Shown here piece after piece: positions 9,626-46,146 of a DNA stretch of 64,000 nt. Position 1 is the first letter of the stretch, and each line of letters starts with the position of its first letter. This DNA comes from Ursus arctos. Its lineage: Eukaryota > Chordata > Mammalia > Carnivora > Ursidae. The stretch is taken from positions 10,430,566 through 10,494,565 of the forward strand of contig NC_079873.1 of assembly GCF_023065955.2 (NCBI RefSeq), given 5' to 3'. The position numbers and the translations under genes were made by a program. The notes under the pieces were generated by a model. That model was given only the letters and a program-made list of their open reading frames with translations. It was not told the origin of the DNA and ran no database searches.

Positions 9626-9814
9626 TACCACTGGGACAAGCTTTGTTCTAGAGCTAAAAAAAGTTCTGTATTAAAATGCCTCTGGAAACTGATAGAGCTG
9701 AGGTGGGACTGGATGTAGAATGGCAGGAAGTTAAAAAATAACTCGAGGGAAGAAGATAATGCAAAAGGCAAGGCAAGGCAGCACGGCGGGGGGGGGGGGC
9801 AGGCGCACACTCAC

Positions 9815-10268
9815 GTCGCTCTTCCCTGTGCCTCTCGGTCTGGGCGAAGTACTGGCGCAGCTCCTCGGTGATCTCCATGTTGCTCAGGTCGCACTCCACG
9901 CCCCCGTCTGACTCGGACTCCGCCTCCTCCTCGGTGGGCCGAGCTCGGCGTTCTCTCGGGCGCCGTTCTCCTGGGCGGGCTGGTGGATGCTGCCCAGACC
10001 TTCTGGAATGTGAAGACCCGCAGTGCGAGTCCGTGGAAGCCAGGAGATGGTCACGAGAGGGCCGAGGAGATTTGGCCTTGTTAGTGTAAGAGCTTTGGGG
10101 AAGAGCTGCAGGAGGGAAGGACCACGGGCAACTGAAATACGATTCCACGGCCTTCCTGTAGGCACTATGGTGGCTTCGCATCCAGGCCATCGCCTGATGA
10201 TAATGTCGCCAGTATCTTGCATATACGGGATGAAAAGACCACGGCTCAGTAGCTTTCCAGGATGCCAC
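9815..10268 (-). CDS. GEMIN8: GEMIN8 main coding exon (residues 5-156)
   Basis: The exon encodes the N-terminal signature [18 protein letters not shown] (residues 17-34), a variable middle, an acidic stretch (EEEAESESD, residues 117-125) and the conserved [18 protein letters not shown] (128-145), ending in HREER. It begins with GTG directly after a TTTATTCTGTAG acceptor, so that GTG is an internal Val codon and not a start. The donor is C/GTGAGT at 9815/9814. Residues 95-115 are Pro/Arg-rich ([18 protein letters not shown]) and GC-rich. From memory this central linker differs most from the human protein, while both flanks match it well. A G12 tract (plus strand 9788-9799) lies about 15 nt into the downstream intron. 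Confidence 0.95.
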
Positions 10269-45072: not shown

Positions 45073-45859
45073 GTCTAAGAACTATTGCCAAGAGTAAACG
45101 CCTGCTGGCACCTGCAGTGCCAGAGAGTGCCTTTAGGCCAGGAGCTGTGGGGGATGACTGTAGGAAGTTGGGCCGCAGGTGCTGAAGTGGTAAAGGCTAG
45201 AGACCCTAACAGCATTTACTACAGTCCTTCATAATGTCTACAGTTTTAAAAGCGGGCTATGAAACAAGATGTATAGAATGACTTCATTTTTGCAATCCCA
45301 CTCCAAATGCATATGTGCACACACTTCCAGACATGTCGGCCCTACCACTGGCTCGCTGTGGTTCTCTTCCCTCCAACCCTCTGAGCTCTGGATCCCATCG
45401 TTTTATATCTTGTTGAGCACCTCACACCTTTAGCCAATCTGTCTGCTCCCCCTCCCCCCGCCCAACTTCCCTGTCGAAGACCTTCTTCTATTGAAATATT
45501 TGCAGCTGCTATGCATATACTCTACTAGTGCTCATGTTTTCCCATGAGGAGATGTTTGTCGTGACCAGAGACTGCAAACACACGGCTAAGCCTGGAGTTC
45601 AACAGTTTAACTAAGACATGCCTACGTGTGGTTTTCTTTGTACTTATTCTGCTTGGGTTTCACTGAGCTTCTGGAATCTGTGGGTTAGTATCTCTCATTG
45701 GTTTCCTCAGTATGGGAGACATTCTTTACCGCTTTTGCTTTGCTTCGAGCATTGGTTCTGTATCATTCTCTTCATCTCCTTTCTTTCTAGGAGTCCCTTT
45801 ATGCTTGCATTAGGCCTATTCTCCATATCTCACATGGAGATATGTTTTGGTTTTTTTCT

Positions 45860-46009
45860 TTTTTCTTTTTTTTTTAATGATTTTTTATTTTATTATGTTA
45901 GTCACCATACAGTACATCAAAAGGGCGTCTTGCCTCCCCGTCAGGGAATCGAACCCCAGTCTCCCGCGTGACAGGCGGGGATACTCACCACTATACTAAC
46001 GAGGACGGC
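45860..46009 (-). mobile_element. tRNA-Asp/L1 3'-end chimeric retroelement
   Basis: Minus-strand order: GCCG, a complete tRNA-Asp(GTC) sequence, GCA (a mutated CCA position), a short linker, then GATGTACTGTATGGTGAC…, which I recognise as the carnivoran L1 3' end, then AATAAAATAAAAAATCATT and a poly(A) tail. A perfect 12-bp target duplication TGGTTTTTTTCT brackets it at 45848-45859 and 46010-46021. This is the structure expected when L1 reverse transcriptase primes on L1 RNA, then switches template to a mature tRNA. It sits inside an older antisense L1. Confidence 0.85.
45934..46005 (-). tRNA. tRNA-Asp(GTC)-like retropseudogene (72 nt, near-intact)
   Basis: The minus strand from 46005 to 45934 folds as a full cloverleaf. 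The acceptor stem is TCCTCGT/ACGGGGA with discriminator G, and the anticodon GTC lies at 45972-45970 in a CCTGTCACG loop. The A box (TAGTATAGTGG) and B box (GGTTCGATTCC) are intact. Against the nuclear tRNA-Asp sequence recalled from memory I see two changes, both in the T stem and both C-to-T at former CpGs, leaving wobble pairs. The fusion to an L1 tail and the target duplications mark it as a retro-copy and not a resident tRNA gene. Its Pol III promoter looks usable, but there is no T-run terminator directly after it. Confidence 0.9.
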
Positions 46010-46146
46010 TGGTTTTTTTCTATCTTTTTTTTTTGTATTTTCTATCTTTTTTACACTCTGTGCATCAATTTGTATATATCTAGTCACTTGGCTTTCTCTG
46101 TTCAATTGTATCTAATCTAATATTAAACCCATTTATTGCATTCTTT

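Follow-up and report, generated by a model that had tools for sequence, protein, structure and literature searches.

A tRNA-Asp unit with gene-type leader and trailer joined to a LINE-1 3′ end inside one target-site duplication

In the window, the 64,000-nucleotide stretch of DNA that was analysed, an insert on the minus strand consists of a tRNA-Asp(GTC) unit, a LINE-1 (L1) 3′ end and poly(A), enclosed by one perfect 12-bp target-site duplication. Read in the sense of the insert, the order is AGAAAAAAACCA (target duplication), GCCG, a 72-nt tRNA-Asp(GTC), GCAAGACGCCC, TTTT, GATGTACTGTATGGTGACTAACATAATAAAATAAAAAATCATT, an A-rich tail and a second AGAAAAAAACCA (Table 1). We consider it highly likely that all of this arrived in one L1-driven insertion of a hybrid of two RNAs, in which a full primary pre-tRNA-Asp was joined at its 3′ U-run to a young L1 RNA, represented by its last ~43 nt and poly(A), with both parts in sense orientation. 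The sequence shows where the insert begins and ends, that leader and trailer are of gene type, that the tail is an L1 3′ end, that a single duplication encloses everything and that the two parts have the same orientation. The pre-tRNA would comprise a 4-nt leader, the 72-nt tRNA, an 11-nt trailer and four terminal Us. An earlier note on this DNA had described a bipartite tRNA/L1 retrogene within one L1-type target duplication, a description that our analysis bears out. It had also proposed a mature, CCA-bearing tRNA as the template, which is contradicted by a leader and a trailer, up to the Pol III terminator, that are both of gene type.

Table 1. Parts of the insert and their positions in the window
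Feature	Position	Strand	Basis or remark
Target-site duplication, 5′ copy in insert sense (AGAAAAAAACCA)	46010..46021	-	identical 12-mer on both sides
Pre-tRNA 5′ leader GCCG	46006..46009	-	matches readable tRNA-Asp unit L002 (= L031 unit); match ends at next base
tRNA-Asp (GTC) body	45934..46005	-	ARAGORN, Rfam, alignment
A box	about 45987-45998	-	by eye
B box GGTTCGATTCC	45945-45955	-	by eye
C-to-T changes	45958 and 45943	-	alignment; each turns a T-stem G-C into G-U (pairing by eye)
3′ trailer GCAAGACGCCC	45923..45933	-	matches readable unit save one A; fits readable flanks of 3/5 array units exactly
TTTT, Pol III terminator, final pre-tRNA bases	45919..45922	-	array unit: TTTTTGG after trailer
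L1 3′ end, begins GATGTACTGTATGG	45876..45918	-	motif and L1 copy comparison; last 17 bases 1 off young L1 group
Poly(A) tail, one G inside	45860..45875	-	sequence
Target-site duplication, 3′ copy in insert sense	45848..45859	-	identical 12-mer

ARAGORN predicted a single tRNA in the window, tRNA-Asp (gtc), and the same bases matched Rfam RF00005 at 54.5 bits (cut-off 29), the sole gathering-level match in the 64 kb. The minus-strand tRNA-Asp with anticodon GTC that had been noticed from the letters alone was thereby confirmed, and the A and B boxes, which had been called intact, are kept when read by eye. The minimum-free-energy fold of the 92-nt pre-tRNA stretch contained no cloverleaf and was not better than the folds of shuffled sequences (z -0.68; 49 of 200 shuffles were as good), so that the tRNA call rests on the tRNA models and on the match to a gene. 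Phage records yielded four matches, all to tRNA-Asp and none with 80% query cover.

The window's own assembly (2.42 Gb) contains, on contig C114, a tRNA-Asp unit that aligns with the insert from GCCG through TTTT (query 13-103), with 89 of 93 columns identical. The match ends at both bounds: on the 5′ side, the last A of the target duplication in the insert is opposite a C in the unit, and on the 3′ side the unit reads TTTTTGG where the insert has TTTTGATG. Compared with this readable unit, the insert has two substitutions, both C-to-T at CpG, and two 1-base indels, owing to an extra T in the anticodon loop and an extra A in the trailer of the unit. The exact parent was not seen among the units of the array to which it belongs, the readable one differing by these two indels. 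For three of the five array units, gene length and readable flanking bases are consistent with a 72-nt tRNA that carries the exact trailer of the chimera, and for a fourth with a trailer that has the extra A; in these four units, the fit is one of lengths and flanks, not a base reading of the tRNA.

Because the leader and trailer match the gene and a mature tRNA has neither, the GCA at the position of CCA is not a CCA. The GCA that had been reported after the tRNA is indeed present, but it opens the gene's own 3′ trailer rather than being a CCA remnant, and the short linker that had been set apart as a separate element belongs to this trailer and to the terminator TTTT. The insert does not start at tRNA base 1 and end in CCA, as a retrocopy of a mature CCA-tRNA would. 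A switch of ORF2p from L1 RNA to a mature CCA-tRNA, followed by a short linker of undefined origin, would account for the complete tRNA body and the GCA at the CCA position. We regard it as very improbable, given that the tRNA-Asp unit agrees with the insert over the four bases preceding the tRNA and, with one exception, over the 15 that follow it, and rejected a mature CCA-tRNA origin on this agreement of leader GCCG and trailer. Judged from its flanks, the captured RNA is an unprocessed primary pre-tRNA-Asp and not a mature CCA-tRNA.

The array holds five tRNA-Asp-type units, spaced 7.69-7.73 kb apart, in the 48 kb read. The readable unit lies at 1501-1593 of L002 (the same in L031), where ARAGORN reported tRNA-??? 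with anticodon gttc; its extra anticodon-loop T may be a real variant or an assembly error. One tRNA-Gly(TCC) was present in each of L030, L031 and L032 of the ~7.7-kb tandem array (array loci L030, L031, L032, L035), which we take to resemble the human 1q tRNA array. A census of tRNA-Asp genes across the genome gave 0 matches, a figure without weight, since the tRNA of the window itself is among the letters unread there. A second, diverged tRNA-Asp (L003 1515-1589, minus strand; 90% to the insert) is directly followed by a SINE-like repeat, seen by eye, and is either a gene or a retrocopy. At L009 (about 1478-1558), a short tRNA-Asp-like 5′ piece without an A tail ends near the anticodon loop and lies between 20-bp direct repeats (CACAATGTATACAATTATCA, by eye); it resembles a tailless tRNA retropseudogene that may include some leader.

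The readable unit contains ten CpGs, corresponding to 20 CpG positions, and two of these are changed in the insert; the other 73 positions carry no substitutions and two indels. The two C-to-T changes at CpG that had been proposed therefore hold against a tRNA-Asp unit of the same genome. The view of a fairly recent copy undergoing CpG decay was likewise borne out. When CpG rates of 1-2 x 10^-8 per year are assumed, the two changes correspond to about 5-10 million years, a rough estimate based on two events and on assumed rates.

The direct repeats TGGTTTTTTTCT at the two ends of the insert are identical, in agreement with the perfect 12-bp duplication described before. A match of at least 12 bases occurred in 0.035% of 20,000 random placements in the same window and at the same spacing (offsets up to 5 on each side); both repeat copies are T-rich, so the local chance of a 12-base match is higher than this figure. 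The target nick is also T-rich, TTTTTTTCT/AT or TTTTTTT/CT, and matches the L1 endonuclease site, TTTT/AA, only partially by eye. Of the features of an L1 chimeric retrogene, one duplication around both parts, a 5′-truncated L1 3′ end and poly(A) are present. The single duplication, the same orientation of the parts and the poly(A) fit target-primed reverse transcription begun on L1 RNA.

Two other histories of the locus were weighed against this evidence. That a tailless pre-tRNA retrocopy and an ultra-short L1 inserted independently at the same place is improbable. Tailless tRNA copies are known (accessible text of PMC2912911 and PMC5322556), and this genome has ultra-short L1 pieces that start at or beside GATG and carry duplications of their own (6 of 19 other distinct L1 3′ ends, in a biased search), but here a single duplication surrounds both parts. 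Moreover, had an ultra-short L1 inserted after GCCCTTTT, another copy of those bases should follow its poly(A), and no such copy is present. That a resident tRNA-Asp gene had an L1 land beside it is scarcely credible: the tRNA looks intact, with leader, trailer and terminator, but the match to the array unit ends at the leader and at the terminator, the fourth T is immediately followed by L1, and tRNA and L1 lie within one duplication.

For the joint insertion of pre-tRNA and L1 RNA, the nature of the L1 part and of the join can be read from other L1 copies. The 26-base L1 motif at 45893-45918 is the sole match in the window when up to 3 mismatches are allowed, and its 24-base core has 29,172 occurrences genome-wide; the earlier assignment of the tail to an L1 3′ end was confirmed. 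We sampled the first 30 listed of the 29,172 occurrences, all on contig C1 and chosen without regard to upstream sequence. Nine of these 30 L1 3′ ends differed from the chimera at one of 17 tail bases. The 11 copies with an ATCATT tail (one ATCGTT) had a median mutual difference of 3.5% over 120 upstream bases (55/55 pairs), and the median among the other 19 copies was 10.1% (153/171 pairs; 18 pairs without a 60-base alignment were dropped). The tail of the chimera fits best to the youngest-looking group of L1 copies in this sample. The L1 partner was probably a young L1, to go by these copies, and we take its end to be of the carnivore type and the neighbouring repeat to be CAN-SINE-like.

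All nine nearest L1 copies have CCGGG directly before GATG. Since they read GG and not TT before the join, the four Ts most likely all come from the pre-tRNA; the TTTT would then not be L1 sequence, and the join would most likely be free of microhomology. More diverged L1 copies have ATT or CTT before GATG, and the join may include a 2-base overlap (TT) with L1. A switch led by microhomology at a shared TT is disfavoured by the CCGGG of the nearest copies and by the finding of a T before GATG in only one of the 30 sampled copies (L045).

TTTT directly before the exact 26-base L1 motif was found at three places in the genome, namely this locus, L006/L028 and L021/L029, the last two both having the appearance of very short L1 inserts. 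At L004, L005, L014, L020, L021 and L024, L1 inserts as short as about 40-70 bp start at or beside GATGTACTG, and each has its own direct repeat. These represent 6 of the 19 other distinct L1 3′ ends in a set obtained with a biased query that itself begins at GATG, and L006 and L026 are similar by eye. An L1 truncation hot spot at GATG was not borne out, as all 30 sampled L1 3′ ends extend beyond it by eye. The insert at L006 (about 1500-1580) carries a short inverted L1-like piece (CTACAGTACATC) on its 5′ side, as twin priming would give, again by eye. Viral contigs contained no exact match of the 26-base L1 motif. Elsewhere in the window, an open frame at 9654-10268 on the minus strand matched Pfam GEMIN8 (E 4.1e-58, profile 1-145 of 229) and probably represents a coding exon or a portion of a gene copy. 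As human GEMIN8 lies on the X chromosome, contig C1 may be the X as well.

Target-primed reverse transcription would have started at the L1 poly(A), copied the L1 3′ end and then proceeded along the pre-tRNA. On the better-fitting reading of the four Ts, the join falls between the fourth U of the Pol III transcript and an internal L1 base, with no bases in common. We consider it somewhat probable that ORF2p passed to the pre-tRNA by an end-to-end template jump. Ligation of the two RNAs before insertion is, by analogy with the proposal for U6/L1, a serious possibility. The ligase RtcB needs a 3′ phosphate or cyclic phosphate; the U6 end is a cyclic phosphate that RtcB can use, whereas a Pol III pre-tRNA ends in a 3′-OH bound by La and normally lacks such a phosphate. 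Because the La-bound end is unlike an RtcB substrate, we lean slightly to the template jump. Pre-tRNAs are nuclear, which makes the nucleus the probable meeting place of the two RNAs.

tRNA-derived SINEs with LINE tails consist of a Pol III tRNA head and a LINE-type tail, with no Pol III terminator between promoter and tail. In the insert, TTTT stands between the two. With a terminator between the A/B boxes and the L1 tail, the expected transcript would end before the tail and would not be remobilised as a poly(A) SINE. The insert might instead be the founder or a member of a young tRNA-Asp/L1 SINE family, given its retained A and B boxes, its poly(A) and a layout like that of LINE-tailed SINEs; four Ts can be a leaky Pol III terminator in mammals, and read-through is possible. 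We give this reading very little credence, because TTTT separates promoter and tail and because no other locus joining both parts was found in the genome searches. Of the 24 scored matches from the own-genome search, 23 cover just one of the two parts, and the remaining one is this locus. The junction 30-mer had three genome matches, and only this locus has a tRNA upstream, the other two being short L1 pieces. These searches skip very common words, and some tRNA letters are unread, among them the ones of this very locus in the genome; within this scope a single junction was found, where a SINE would show repeated copies. Neither suggestion of the earlier note on this point, a newborn SINE or a member of an unnoticed small family, is supported: the terminator stands between the promoter and the L1/poly(A) tail, and under the search scope just given the genome yielded a single junction. 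By these sequence features, the locus is probably a single dead-end insertion and not a SINE family. It illustrates how a fusion of this kind may fall short of becoming a SINE, since the terminator that made the RNA end stays between promoter and tail.

L1 chimeras are known with U6, U6atac, U5 and U3, and U6 and U6atac, which share a Pol III U-run and nuclear location, are the snRNAs most often joined to L1 (accessible text of PMC4476161). The same accessible text gives the U-run and nuclear location as possible reasons for the joining of U6 (Doucet et al. 2015, PMC4476161). A pre-tRNA likewise has a U-run and a nuclear location. Ligation of U6 to L1 was reported by Moldovan 2019, as cited in the available parts of PMC13247085 and PMC13174262. 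As in U6/L1 and U6atac/L1, a sense Pol III transcript is here end-joined to a 5′-truncated L1 3′ end within one target duplication. The whole RNA is joined at its terminal Pol III U-run, as in the U6/L1 type, with a possible 2-base L1 overlap. Unlike in U6/L1, the partner is a pre-tRNA, an RNA whose two ends are both normally trimmed.

Law and Burns 2026 described 21 human tRNA/L1 chimeras, typically half-length and predominantly antisense to L1, and in the accessible part of that paper tied them to tRNA halves and twin priming (PMC13174262). In these chimeras, as far as that part describes them, tRNA and L1 were inserted together with target duplications, as here. Unlike the main human type in the same text, the present locus is full-length and sense, with leader and trailer, rather than half-length and antisense; individual loci of this form may be among the 21 human ones. 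The tRNA/L1 chimera is already known in human, and the full-length, sense, unprocessed form is a variant of it seen at one locus. Tailless tRNA and pre-tRNA retropseudogenes (Schmitz 2004, as described in the available parts of PMC4476161 and PMC2912911) are likewise L1-mediated copies of tRNA or pre-tRNA, but are 3′-truncated and, according to those parts, without an A tail or L1 part. LINE-tailed, tRNA-derived SINEs (PMC3747384, in its accessible portion) share the head and tail layout, but have many copies, are self-propagating and carry the tail within the Pol III transcript.

No pre-tRNA/L1 chimera was found described in the literature surveyed, which took in few subscription papers and no supplementary tables. 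The locus separates two ideas on RNA capture by L1, cleaved halves with twin priming on the one hand and joining at a U-run on the other. Tentatively, we propose that every nuclear Pol III precursor with a retained 3′ U-run, and not just U6, can join end to end to L1 RNA and that pre-tRNA/L1 might form a recurrent class beside U6/L1. The unprocessed leader and trailer would then place the joining inside the nucleus, ahead of the action of RNase P and RNase Z. Should further loci of this kind exist, a U-run and nuclear location, and not something specific to U6, would set the choice of partner.
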